IMG/VR virus record: IMGVR_UViG_3300032285_003489
Coordinates: 1-20,886 of that record
Length of the DNA stretch: 20,886 nucleotides
Reading direction: 5' to 3' (one strand)
Source of the DNA: a virus
In this document: positions 4,399-7,837 of the stretch, piece by piece
How positions within the stretch are numbered: position 1 is the first letter of the stretch
Layout of the letters: every line of letters starts with the position of its first letter
The notes under the pieces: generated by a model
Databases searched by the model: none
Seen by the model: the letters and a program-made list of their open reading frames with translations, nothing else
Told to the model about the DNA's origin: nothing
Made by a program: the position numbers and the translations under genes

Positions 4399-4604
4399 AA
4401 GAACTATCACTAATTTTATCAGCACTCAGTTTAACTGTATCTTTAGGTTTAGCAGTTGGTGCTTATATGACATATAAGAAAGCAGAAGATATGATTAACA
4501 ATCCAGAAAAACTAATTGACCAAATCGTAGATCATAAAATGAATGATCTACTAAAAAACTTACCATTACCAAAATCACCAATTAAAGACTTCAAGATTTT
4601 TTAG
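4395..4604 (+). CDS. Small membrane-anchored protein with charged tail
   Basis: This 69-residue protein has an N-terminal hydrophobic helix (residues 4-27, LSLILSALSLTVSLGLAVGA) and a charged amphipathic tail (KKAEDMINNPEKLIDQIVDHK) ending in a Pro-rich stretch. It could be an uncleaved anchor. GGAG lies about 10 nt upstream of the ATG, and the start overlaps the previous stop (ATGA). It is the last gene of the plus-strand run and overlaps, tail to tail, the opposite-strand gene by 14 bp. No function assigned. Confidence 0.65.
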   Translation: MKELSLILSALSLTVSLGLAVGAYMTYKKAEDMINNPEKLIDQIVDHKMNDLLKNLPLPKSPIKDFKIF

Positions 4605-5370
4605 ATTGTGCTTCTTTATATTGACGCATCTTTTCTTGTTTCTGTTCTTTTTTCAAAAGTTTAGCAACTTTTTTCATTTGAACATCTTTTTCAAAGGCAA
4701 AGAAAACTTGAAGTTCATAATCAGTTAAGTCCTTATTCAAAAGTTTTTTGGCACGAACATAAAATTGATTTGCTAGTGGCTTAAAAAATTTAAGAAGAAA
4801 CTCTACTGCAGATTTTCCTAGTATAGCAGCAGCAGTTGCAGCCATTGCTGTGGTTCCTGCTAATGCAATCTCTTTATTTGTAGGAACTGGAACTGCACCC
4901 AATATAGGAACATGAATTTCGGGTGCTCCTATTTGAGTGCTTGTAGATGGTTGATCGGAAATATTCCGATTATCCTGTGTATTTTGAACAGGAATTTTGA
5001 CTTGAGGTATTACTGGTTTTGAATCAGGAAGTTTTCTTTCTTTTTGTTCTTCTTCCTTTTCCTTCTTTTCATGTTCTGCTTTTACGGCAGCATCAAATTC
5101 TTCCTGTGTTGGCACAGTTAAAACAGGATAAGACAAAGAAGGATCTGGAACGTTCACTATGGGACGCCCCAGATCCCTTATAACTGGAAATTCAAACTTG
5201 TGTTGAGGCAGATGCTCTACTGTAGTCTGGGGAATCTCCACAGGTTGGACAACCTTCGGTTGATTCAGTTGCGACAACTGGTTCAATTGTTGGTTCGGTA
5301 AGTTCTGGAGTTGGTTCAACTGCGGTGATTGCAGGTTCGGAATCTCGTTTGGCATCTTCCTGTTTATCAT
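4591..5370 (-). CDS. Pro/Gln-rich membrane protein with coiled-coil end
   Basis: This reads as 259 residues: a Gln/Asn/Leu/Pro-rich N-terminus (1-60), a segment that looks conserved (GRPIVNVPDPSLSYPVLTV, about 68-86), a Lys/Glu-rich linker (97-114), a Pro-rich region, one membrane helix (about 167-186, Ala/Thr-rich) and a Lys/Glu-rich helical C-terminus. The first 60 codons overlap the preceding gene by 179 bp in another frame, and there third positions are unusually rich in G/C (AAC, CTG, CCG, CAG), unlike the A/T-ending codons used downstream and in the competing frame. The real start may therefore be downstream, for example GTG at 5157 (about 188 residues), or the N-terminus is overprinted. 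Function unknown. Confidence 0.6.
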   Translation of the reverse strand: MINRKMPNEIPNLQSPQLNQLQNLPNQQLNQLSQLNQPKVVQPVEIPQTTVEHLPQHKFEFPVIRDLGRPIVNVPDPSLSYPVLTVPTQEEFDAAVKAEHEKKEKEEEQKERKLPDSKPVIPQVKIPVQNTQDNRNISDQPSTSTQIGAPEIHVPILGAVPVPTNKEIALAGTTAMAATAAAILGKSAVEFLLKFFKPLANQFYVRAKKLLNKDLTDYELQVFFAFEKDVQMKKVAKLLKKEQKQEKMRQYKEAQSKKS

Positions 5371-5554
5371 TCTTTAGTGTATTAATACCAAAGGTTGCAG
5401 CAGAAGCAGTAAATACCGTCGCAATAAAAGTTGGATCCATTTTAGCAAGAAGTCCTGCATAACTAGCAGTCAAAAGAGCTGCAGACCAACTCAAAATTGC
5501 AACACGAATTAACTGTCCCATAGCTCTTTCTCTTTTATTTGTTGAATCGGCCAT
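5192..5554 (-). CDS. Small membrane protein, possible holin
   Basis: This 120-residue protein has a short basic N-terminus (STNKRERAM), a long hydrophobic region that can form two helices (about residues 13-33 and 38-56), then a hydrophilic, Glu/Pro-rich tail with a CPTCG motif near residue 100. Topology and proximity to the lysozyme recall two-span holins, but no holin family motif is recognised, so that is only a hypothesis. Codon usage in the 3' part, which overlaps the next gene, is normal for this genome (A/T-ending), arguing this frame is the original one. A CTAAATA late-type box lies 48 nt upstream of the ATG. Confidence 0.65.
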   Translation of the reverse strand: MADSTNKRERAMGQLIRVAILSWSAALLTASYAGLLAKMDPTFIATVFTASAATFGINTLKNDKQEDAKRDSEPAITAVEPTPELTEPTIEPVVATESTEGCPTCGDSPDYSRASASTQV

Positions 5555-5595: not shown

Positions 5596-5608
5596 CTATC
5601 CTATTTAG
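5596..5608 (-). promoter_or_regulatory. Late-type box CTAAATAGGATAG, copy 1
   Basis: The minus strand reads CTAAATAGGATAG, identical over 13 bp to the sequence before the C39 peptidase gene (7856-7868). The CTAAATA core resembles the T4 late box with its first base pair changed. It overlaps the nuclease stop codon and would start transcripts near 5595, about 40 nt before the small membrane protein ATG. Confidence 0.55.
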
Positions 5609-5987
5609 TCCAAGGACATGCCTTTGGCATATAAACTACAGCATGACCAGTTGCTACTGCTTCCTGGTTAATTTCAGTTCCATCAGCAAGAAAGAGGCGT
5701 CCAACAGTTCTACCATAAAGATCTTTAGTAACTCTTTCAATCTTAATATCTTGATTTAGAACTAAATCAGACAACCATTTTTGTGCTGCTGGACCACCAA
5801 TTGGATCTTTTTTACCGTGCTTGTTATTGGTTACTTCTGGAGCATCAATACAAGCAAGACGAATCTTTTCACCAGATGCTGTAGTTACAGTATCTCCATC
5901 ATGAACTCCAACAATAACATCTGCTTTAACAGCAAGTGTTACTAATGAGAGGGCAGCAATTACTGCACCAATTTTTAAAAGTTTCAT
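5601..5987 (-). CDS. Exported staphylococcal-type thermonuclease
   Basis: This 128-residue protein has a signal peptide (MKLLKIGAVIAALSLVTLAV, cleavage after VKA at about residue 22) and a compact SNase domain. The metal and catalytic residues of staphylococcal nuclease are all visible: DGDT (Asp30, Asp32), IRLACIDAPE (Arg43, Asp48, Glu51) and DLYGRTVGRL (Arg93). The family cleaves DNA and RNA phosphodiester bonds with Ca2+. The leader predicts export to the periplasm, so it would act on extracellular or incoming DNA or on debris at lysis rather than on the cytoplasmic chromosome. It sits between the metallopeptidase and the small membrane protein in one orientation. No key residue is missing. 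Confidence 0.88.
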   Translation of the reverse strand: MKLLKIGAVIAALSLVTLAVKADVIVGVHDGDTVTTASGEKIRLACIDAPEVTNNKHGKKDPIGGPAAQKWLSDLVLNQDIKIERVTKDLYGRTVGRLFLADGTEINQEAVATGHAVVYMPKACPWTK

Positions 5988-6012: not shown

Positions 6013-6477
6013 TTACAAAGGAGGCATTTTGAAAACATCTGGATGTGAGAAATCAAAGTTTCTCATCATAATAGCAGATCGTACATTTGCTTCATTTTCT
6101 GTTGGACTTCCAGTTTCACCAGTTCCATGAACACCAGTAATATGTTGGTGGTAATGAACTAATTCATGACCAAGAGTTCTTAAAGCATCCAAGGGTTGTC
6201 TATTTTCAATATTTACCACAATTCTATTATGTTGACTTGTCTGACCAAATGTTCCCTTAACTTGACTAAATCCTGAATTTTTAACAATTGTAATTCCAGG
6301 AATATTTTTTACATGAAGTCCTTCCTTCCCATTTTTAAAATGAAGAGGAGGAATTGTTTTGAGTTTTAATTCCTTAAAAACAAAAGGAAGAAACTTATGA
6401 ACAAGTTTTTCAAACTCTTCTATACTAGTTTTTTGACAACTAGATGCTTCATTTAGAAATTCCTGGAATGTTTTCAT
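6013..6477 (-). CDS. HExxH zinc metallopeptidase with capsid-targeting N-terminus
   Basis: I place the start at 6477 (MKTFQEFLNEA); the longer frame from 6522 would overlap the lysozyme gene and hide this typical N-terminus. The mature domain has HELVH (residues 104-108), a gluzincin-like zinc site, with ENEAN (127-131) placed to give the third Glu ligand. The first ten residues closely resemble the T4 internal-protein capsid-targeting sequence (MKTYQEFIAE), and LNE before Ala fits the L/I-x-E cleavage site of the T4 prohead protease gp21. The protein (154 residues) may thus be packaged and injected. The start is 1 nt after the lysozyme stop. Protease activity is well supported by motif; packaging is inference. 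Confidence 0.78.
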   Translation of the reverse strand: MKTFQEFLNEASSCQKTSIEEFEKLVHKFLPFVFKELKLKTIPPLHFKNGKEGLHVKNIPGITIVKNSGFSQVKGTFGQTSQHNRIVVNIENRQPLDALRTLGHELVHYHQHITGVHGTGETGSPTENEANVRSAIMMRNFDFSHPDVFKMPPL

Positions 6478-6478
6478 T

Positions 6479-7129
6479 TTACTTCTTCCACGATTCACCT
6501 TCTGCCTTTCTTCTACGAGCAAGTCCTGCTTCTACATTTGAACCAGGATTGCGATAGAGATATAAAGCATCAGGAACTTTATCCCATTCTTTATTCTTCA
6601 GTCTTGTGGTAATGGTATTAAAATCTCCACTACCATAAAAACCTGCACCTAAGTTATAAGCGAAAGAAAGTAATGCACCTCTTTGCCCATCACTCATTTC
6701 ATTCCAATGTGGAATTTTACGAAGTGCTGGAAGGAAGTTTTTACGGCATTCATCCATCAATAATGAATCTGCTTCTGCTTGAGTAATGGTTTGACCCAAT
6801 CTAAATGGACCACCATTCTTATCTCTGGTGCATCCCCAACCAATCGTAATTGGAAGTCCTCCTGTGAGAGGATCTGGATATGCATTCAATCTGCAACCTT
6901 CAAATTGTTTAATCAATTGAAGACCTGCTGCAGGAACATCATCACCAGATGCTGCAGCGGCAGATGCTGCTACAGCTTCAGTCTTTTTTCTAAAGATCTC
7001 CGCCCATTCTGCCTTATCTTCCAAATATTGAACTGGAAGATGATCTTCTAACCATTGAACTCCTTTTACATGATTTTCATTCTTTTCATCATAAAACTTG
7101 AAAAAGTTATGTAAATCTACTTTTGCCAT
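6479..7129 (-). CDS. GH24 lysozyme (endolysin) with N-terminal module
   Basis: The 216 residues fall in two parts. Residues 1-50 form a helical module almost identical in pattern to the start of the next-door peptidase (DLHNFFK(F/Y)YD...NENHV...VQWLED). A Ala-rich linker (about 51-66) leads to a GH24 muramidase domain: LIKQFEG gives catalytic Glu77, and Asp86 and Thr95 (in PITIGWG) match the T4 lysozyme Glu11/Asp20/Thr26 arrangement; GQRGALLSFAYNLG is the family's second signature. It hydrolyses MurNAc-GlcNAc bonds of peptidoglycan. AGGAG lies 8 nt upstream of the ATG. There is no signal peptide, so release would need a holin, or it acts from the virion. Confidence 0.9.
   Translation of the reverse strand: MAKVDLHNFFKFYDEKNENHVKGVQWLEDHLPVQYLEDKAEWAEIFRKKTEAVAASAAAASGDDVPAAGLQLIKQFEGCRLNAYPDPLTGGLPITIGWGCTRDKNGGPFRLGQTITQAEADSLLMDECRKNFLPALRKIPHWNEMSDGQRGALLSFAYNLGAGFYGSGDFNTITTRLKNKEWDKVPDALYLYRNPGSNVEAGLARRRKAEGESWKK
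6986..7117 (-). repeat. Shared N-terminal module, copy in lysozyme
   Basis: This encodes residues 5-48 of the lysozyme. It aligns without gaps over most of its length with the start of the peptidase gene and shares an exact 18-bp DNA run (7043-7060 equals 7754-7771), so the module was duplicated within this locus. Confidence 0.8.
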
Positions 7130-7147: not shown

Positions 7148-7837
7148 TTACGAACCGAAAATACGACCCCAGCCTGTGCCAGGTTTGCCCTGATCTAACC
7201 AACGATACTTGAGAACATCTTTGGTATAGATTGTTTTTTTACCATGCTCAACTGGACCAGTATAGTTATCATTTAACGATCCATAAGGATCGTTAATATA
7301 ATATCCTTTGAGATCAGGAGTAGTACCAATCACTACGACCATGTGACCGCCAGTTGGAGCAGAAAGAGGACCACGGTGGAGGATACCGATAACCAAGGGG
7401 CGCCCAGCAGCAAGCTCTCTATCAATATCAGCAAACCCAAGGTTGTAACTAAAATGTGACTTAACGCCATAAGAAGCAAGAACTTTTGTCTGTACTGAGT
7501 GATCAGTACTGTCACCAATTGCGAACACTTTTTGTACGTAAGCATCATCACCTTTTGCACCTTTAAGAGTGCCTGGTTTGAGGAACTCCAAGCACATAGC
7601 GCACGATGAAGAGTTGCAAGTCCTATGTGCATCTCTATAGTTATCTACTTGATTGAAATATGGAACTGCCAATACTGGTGGAGTAGGTGGTTTAGTTCTA
7701 AAAATTTTGATCCATTCTGTTTCTGAATCATCCATATATTCAGCAGGAAGGTTATCTTCTAACCATTGAACTGCTGCTACATGGTTTTCATTCGTATCAT
7801 CATAATACTTAAAAAAGTTATGAAGATCTAAGGTCAT
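7148..7837 (-). CDS. C39-like papain-fold cysteine peptidase
   Basis: This 229-residue protein starts with the same module as the lysozyme (residues 3-49), then a Pro-rich linker (PPTPP) and a Peptidase_C39_2-like domain. Visible landmarks are VPYFNQ (58-63), the nucleophile region RTCNSSS with Cys74, PTGGHMVVVIG with His165, and INDPYG with Asp183, giving the Cys-His-Asp triad in order. This family cleaves peptides and in phages often acts on cell-wall cross-links; the substrate is inferred from the neighbouring lysozyme and shared module. GAGG lies 5 nt upstream of ATG, and a CTAAATA late box lies 31 nt upstream of the start, so expression is probably late. It leads a run of four degradative enzymes. 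Confidence 0.8.
   Translation of the reverse strand: MTLDLHNFFKYYDDTNENHVAAVQWLEDNLPAEYMDDSETEWIKIFRTKPPTPPVLAVPYFNQVDNYRDAHRTCNSSSCAMCLEFLKPGTLKGAKGDDAYVQKVFAIGDSTDHSVQTKVLASYGVKSHFSYNLGFADIDRELAAGRPLVIGILHRGPLSAPTGGHMVVVIGTTPDLKGYYINDPYGSLNDNYTGPVEHGKKTIYTKDVLKYRWLDQGKPGTGWGRIFGS
7691..7828 (-). repeat. Shared N-terminal module, copy in C39 peptidase
   Basis: This encodes residues 4-49, the partner of the lysozyme module at 6986-7117. Conserved features are DLHNFFK, NENHV, VQWLED(N/H)LP and EW..IFR. The function is unknown; it could anchor both enzymes to the same place (cell wall, tail or each other). Confidence 0.8.

Follow-up and report, generated by a model that had tools for sequence, protein, structure and literature searches.

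A predicted zincin-like metallopeptidase of a T4-like cyanophage carries a conserved capsid-targeting-like leader

We report a small predicted zinc metallopeptidase that is probably targeted to the head of a T4-like cyanophage through a ten-residue N-terminal leader of the T4 type. The window analysed, a virus fragment of 20,886 bases (20.9 kb) from IMG/VR, is assigned to a T4-like cyanophage because it contains high-light-inducible, C39, lysozyme, nuclease and glycosyltransferase-type genes; its nearest cultured relatives are the lake Synechococcus phages DSL-LC02 and DSL-LC03 (Kyanoviridae). The concept of cargo carried by a capsid-targeting sequence (CTS) is already known from T4, and we read the peptidase as a new, enzymatic cargo of that known internal-protein system. 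In the open-licence literature we found neither a stand-alone metallopeptidase described as CTS cargo nor the leader presented as a general rule for enzymes in cyanophage heads.

Results

The peptidase begins with a leader constrained at the functional positions of the T4 CTS

The gene lies on the minus strand at 6013-6477 (ATG at 6477, stop at 6013-6015) and encodes a product of 154 amino acids. The initial annotation had read MKTFQEFLNEA at the N-terminus and HELVH followed by ENEA in the body of this product, and translation of the ORF bears this out: the three motifs are residues 1-11, 104-108 and 127-130 (ENEAN, 127-131), respectively. A longer product starting from a TTG at 6522 was considered unlikely, since in the relatives L006, L007, L008 and L204 an in-frame stop lies just before the equivalent of the ATG start.

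Codons 1-10 (6448-6477, minus strand) encode the capsid-targeting-like leader MKTFQEFLNE. In T4 the first ten residues suffice for packing, with residues 4 and 7 directing packing and residues 8 and 10 directing cutting by gp21, which cleaves after L/I-x-E (PMC9026906). The peptidase leader has the appropriate residue at each of these four positions and ends, at the sequence level, in the gp21-type site L8-N9-E10 followed by A11. Compared with the T4 leader of the MKTYQEFIAE type to which the initial annotation had likened it, Y4 is replaced by F and I8 by L, both inside the range found in relatives. Cleavage after Glu10 would release a predicted mature peptidase of 144 residues (residues 11-154; 6016-6447, minus strand) with a calculated pI of 9.3, consistent with the basic bodies of T4 internal proteins. 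Residues 1-22 also align weakly to the PHROGs family phrog_2667, 'internal head protein' (E = 0.05).

Relatives of the peptidase were collected by a close search, which gave 27, and by a profile search, from which 80 of 480 were kept. Close relatives begin with MKTFQEFLNEA, MKTFNQFLSEA, VKSFQEFLIEA or MKTYDQFITEA, and distant homologues (35-40% identity) with MRFKEFLxES, MHTFKSFLIEE or MNYKQFLRES. Among laboratory phages, Synechococcus phage B23 has a homologue that bears the leader. Conservation was assessed on 16 distinct leaders, which were selected through homology and without use of the leader pattern. An aromatic residue (F/Y) occupies position 4 in 15 of the 16, every leader has F7 and E10, and only L or I occurs at position 8; position 9 is occupied by nine different residues, and position 5 also varies. 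The constraint thus falls on the positions that are functional in T4, since 4, 7, 8 and 10 are kept while 9 varies.

Two further observations concern the N-termini. Some relatives begin differently, with MKIxELLE-type sequences that might represent another class of propeptide. In addition, L004:590-1051 and L005:475-936 encode near-identical peptidases whose leaders differ (MKTFQEFLNEA and MKTFNQFLSEA), as does the end of the upstream gene, a difference in sequence that suggests an exchange near the leader boundary.

A single zincin-like peptidase domain is predicted for the body

The HELVH motif (6154-6168, minus strand) supplies the predicted zinc-binding and catalytic residues H104, E105 and H108, and the ENEAN motif (6085-6099, minus strand) the predicted third zinc ligand, E127; all four residues are invariant in an alignment of 47 relatives. 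An AlphaFold model of the peptidase, predicted with confidence (pLDDT 84.7, pTM 0.82), forms a single domain consisting of a leader helix (4-12), a helix, a small sheet, the HELVH helix (95-113) and the ENEAN helix (125-144), the last being the second active-site helix. An HExxH helix succeeded by a helix bearing an invariant Glu is the gluzincin-type layout, and the zincin-like MPTases in phage polyvalent proteins are arranged in the same way, their first C-terminal helix carrying HExxH and their second the Glu (PMC5512222). Polyvalent proteins combine several unrelated domains in one polypeptide; the product described here has one domain, and some of its relatives are longer and multi-domain. 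An ORF of 384 amino acids at L022:2547-3698, for example, has an apparent Nudix domain (N-terminus MKVFDLFREN) ahead of the metallopeptidase domain.

The best viral fold matches were to phage IrrE-like proteins (E = 1e-10), and the fold search also showed related domains to be part of larger proteins with AAA, amidoligase and cytidyltransferase-like annotations (the last in BFVD). Pfam M78 scored 15.7 bits, below its gathering cut-off of 22, and weak M78 matches recurred in 17 of 19 members. The Pfam MPTase-PolyVal profile did not match the peptidase significantly, a sequence search of solved structures returned nothing relevant to it, and the best hit of a PDB fold search, the SprT protease domain, was not significant (E = 0.29). 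Because M78 falls below threshold and no solved structure matches significantly, we describe the product as a predicted zincin-like, IrrE/MPTase-type zinc peptidase and place it in no named peptidase family.

Such a domain could also belong to a conventional phage protease of the IrrE/ImmA-like or SprT-like kind that is made after infection and acts inside the cell producing it, with packing absent or a side effect. The non-significant SprT match points this way, as do leaderless homologues in related phages, the leader being absent from the S-SRM01 homologue and from the related group L224-L273. We nevertheless consider this explanation unlikely, as the leader is retained in homologues of only 35-40% identity and is constrained precisely at the functional CTS positions.

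The lysis neighbourhood suggests late expression

Directly upstream of the peptidase gene lies a lysozyme gene (6479-7129; Pfam Phage_lysozyme, E = 1.1e-22), which is outside the leader system, preceded by a C39-like peptidase gene (7148-7837; Pfam Peptidase_C39_2, E = 1.7e-13); both assignments are backed by synteny. Behind the peptidase are a staphylococcal-nuclease-like gene (5601-5987; Pfam SNase, E = 2.2e-12), whose N-terminus appears by eye to be hydrophobic and signal-peptide-like, and a DUF6450 gene with a hydrophobic stretch (5192-5554; Pfam DUF6450, E = 2.1e-16). All four are on the minus strand. The lysozyme and C39 products share a similar N-terminal domain of ~47 residues, ~64% identical in cross matches. 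An ORF at 4591-5370 (minus strand) shares 179 bases, in another frame, with the ORF at 5192-5554. Both are conserved in relatives, and the two may be genuine overlapping genes of the lysis region.

In close relatives the peptidase gene likewise directly follows a cell-wall enzyme, either lysozyme or C39; in several of these relatives SNase, DUF6450 or both come after it. This neighbourhood suggests late co-expression with the lysis genes, and it is the argument for a competing explanation in which the peptidase belongs to a late lysis cassette, is expressed together with its C39 peptidase and lysozyme and serves in lysis or envelope breakdown, and the leader is incidental or a relic. Late expression is, however, also the time of head building, so the lysis neighbourhood decides neither packing nor lysis. 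The cassette was not seen around distant homologues, and in DSL-LC02 and DSL-LC03 the C39-lysozyme cassettes are intact and lack the peptidase gene, which is therefore accessory. Pfam and PHROGs searches found no peptidoglycan-peptidase domain (M15, M23 or C39) in the peptidase, and its fold is IrrE-like. Packing is favoured over lysis because the protein has neither such a domain nor a signal peptide, because the cassette stands without the gene in cultured relatives, and because the leader is constrained at positions 4, 7, 8 and 10; a role in lysis is accordingly doubtful.

Promoter sequences were uninformative on timing. The late-promoter motif TAAATA shows no enrichment, occurring 30 times in the window where 40 occurrences were expected. 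ATAAATA precedes 15 of 86 leader genes and 111 of 627 other ORFs, and is thus no more frequent in front of leader genes. These counts neither support nor refute late expression.

The same leader occurs on many unrelated, basic proteins

The initial annotation had proposed looking for other proteins with the same leader. The window itself contains a single leader gene; among relatives the search succeeds. A degenerate DNA pattern for the leader gave 20 matches, spread over nine of ten related phage records, and the reversed pattern gave none. A scan of the whole collection matched at least 120 stretches, and examination of 80 leader loci yielded 87 leader proteins longer than 40 amino acids, with bodies from at least 45 unrelated families on viral contigs. 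As a positive control, some of these bodies belong to PHROGs annotated 'internal virion protein' or 'internal head protein' (phrog_5341, phrog_2667 and phrog_8765). Enzyme-like bodies include PARP/ADP-ribosyltransferase (weak, below cut-off), DPBB lytic transglycosylase, glucosaminidase and GNAT acetyltransferase (weak). The median pI of leader bodies is 10.2, compared with 6.1 for other ORFs on the same contigs (P = 1.5e-29), as expected of proteins packed together with DNA.

Several leader proteins drew attention in their own right. Those of L057, L090, L098, L104 and L118 contain a YHGTxxxxxxxIxxxGF-like stretch and, judging by this sequence and weak profile support, are possibly ADP-ribosyltransferases like T4 Alt. 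At L120:9295-9711 and L102:6253-7065 the leader is joined to a DPBB lytic transglycosylase and a glucosaminidase, respectively; cell-wall enzymes are not a cargo that one would expect in the head. In S-SRM01 (L029:3956-5909) the leaderless peptidase homologue is succeeded by a leader-bearing cytidyltransferase gene (MKNFHQFITEA).

Leader genes can also be clustered. In S-CREM2 (gp12-gp15; L187:7704-13331) and S-CRM01 (126c-131c; L275:425-5426), most of the adjacent genes start with the leader or a variant, and these clusters look like head-cargo operons. The N-termini of the neighbouring S-CRM01 genes are MKLFNQFFKEA (127c), MKKLDQFLTEK (129c), MISFDQFLSEK (130c) and MNFSEFLEAIE (131c), and the kinase of S-CRM01 has been reported in virions (as cited in PMC10665884). 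In S-CREM2 gp12 and S-CRM01 128c the leader lies ~17 residues in, behind a common SRW(S/A)NWS-type N-terminus.

Leader-bearing proteins are enriched in published cyanophage virions

Three proteomes of CsCl-purified cyanophage virions were used to assess where leader proteins are found: S-CREM2 (PMC10665884, Table 3), S-SZBM1 (PMC9146016, Table 1) and S-SCSM1 (proteins marked 'virion protein' in the record; PMC9602691). The leader pattern run on their whole genomes was a protein-level one, drawn up before the sequences of these phages were examined. The strict DNA pattern has zero matches in S-CREM2 and S-SZBM1, because its codon choices exclude their leaders (such as those with S or A at position 6 in S-CREM2), and the test therefore rests on the looser protein pattern. 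Ten of its 12 matches coincide exactly with the annotated start of a gene, in genomes that offer 12,667 possible start codons for 719 genes (Fisher P = 2e-11).

Products of six of the ten leader genes were detected in virions, compared with 1.9 expected (P = 0.0045), small numbers drawn from three cyanophages. S-CREM2 accounts for four of these, out of five leader genes: a cytidylyltransferase (MKNFSSFLTEA), an APH-like kinase (VKRFDAFLTEE), a SAM hydrolase (MKDFDSFLEEF) and gp13 (MKDLHSFLTEQ). S-SZBM1 has three annotated leader genes, of which the cytidylyltransferase (MRFRQFIIEA) was detected, and S-SCSM1 has two, of which the NMNAT (MKSFLQFLKEA) was detected. Among the four undetected products are members of the ~106-aa VNISGDFNG family, which was missing from the virions of each of the two phages that carry it. 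The detected tail, baseplate, portal and capsid-shell proteins were free of the leader in all three genomes; its presence on a surface structural protein had been named at the outset as an observation that would count against head targeting. A small S-SCSM1 virion protein (ORF93; L285:41626-41835) ends in RTFKEFLEYIE, a CTS-like stretch that is C-terminal instead of N-terminal.

For the enzymes in their virions, the authors of the S-CREM2 study were unable to distinguish packaging from contamination (PMC10665884), and proteins detected in this way could indeed be co-purified. Among the four virion enzymes that they class under regulation or DNA metabolism, three begin with the leader, and the remaining one carries a similar motif ~17 residues in. 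The presence of the leader favours packaging over contamination for these enzymes. While short motifs do recur by chance and some leader proteins go undetected in virions, it is very improbable that the likeness to a CTS is fortuitous, or reflects a general phage N-terminal motif without a targeting role, given the empty reversed search, the clustering of matches at true gene starts, the basic bodies and the virion enrichment.

Discussion

The initial annotation had proposed that the peptidase is packed in the head, trimmed after Glu10 and injected to act as a protease in the host from time zero. The targeting part of this proposal is well supported, if indirectly, by conservation at CTS positions, by the occurrence of the leader on internal head proteins and by the enrichment in virion proteomes; packing of this protein itself we infer. 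The predicted cut after Glu10 matches a gp21-type site, and of 20 related records 11 have a gp21-type protease, namely every one of the five complete phage genomes and six of the large contigs; no gp21 gene lies within the window, which covers part of a genome.

These observations are compatible with a model in which the peptidase would be made during head assembly and be brought inside through binding of its first ten residues to the scaffolding core of the prohead. A gp21-type prohead protease would then cut after Glu10 to free the basic enzyme, which would remain with the packaged DNA and be ejected together with it. In the infected cell, before phage gene expression, the most likely substrate of the peptidase would be a regulatory or defence protein of the host, or a protein on the incoming DNA. 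We consider this whole chain of packing, trimming, injection and action in the host likely, though less firmly than the head targeting with which it begins; its cleavage, ejection and target steps we infer.

The closest known systems are the T4 internal proteins IPI, IPII and IPIII, which share the ten-residue N-terminal leader (aromatic 4, F7, L/I8, E10), the L/I-x-E site and a basic body, and in which the leader alone is sufficient (PMC9026906). Their bodies are small inhibitors or DNA-bound proteins, whereas the body here, known from its sequence, is a predicted metallopeptidase. T4 Alt, an ADP-ribosyltransferase carried in the head and injected, resembles the peptidase in that the enzyme arrives together with the DNA and undergoes trimming by gp21, as we propose here, but it is a different enzyme and its propeptide has 7 residues (PMC9026906) and is not of this leader type. 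The zincin-like MPTase domains of P1 DdrB and the N4 virion RNA polymerase (PMC5512222) have the same HExxH and Glu helices and show metallopeptidases within head-packed proteins; there the domain is part of a giant protein, whereas here it stands alone behind a T4-type leader. Peptidase M78 (IrrE/ImmA-like) likewise combines HExxH with a downstream Glu, but the score for the present protein is under the Pfam cut-off. Finally, cytidylyltransferase/NMNAT-like proteins, which are different enzymes, are found in virions of S-CREM2, S-SZBM1, S-SCSM1 and S-SM1, and in the first three carry the same kind of leader, a feature not pointed out in the literature searched.

On balance we lean towards a broader model in which the T4-type leader is a common ticket for swappable head enzymes in cyanophages and other T4-superfamily phages. 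With the same leaning, we would count metallopeptidases, ADP-ribosyltransferase-like and NMNAT-like proteins, SAM hydrolase, kinases and cell-wall enzymes among them. Such a common ticket would explain why enzymes have repeatedly been found, and doubted, in cyanophage virion proteomes. If the model is true, a ten-residue tag would provide a testable rule for enzymes in cyanophage particles, and head cargo, including host-directed cargo, would be predictable from genomes alone. For the phage described here, it would mean that a working protease is brought in with the DNA, ahead of any phage gene expression.
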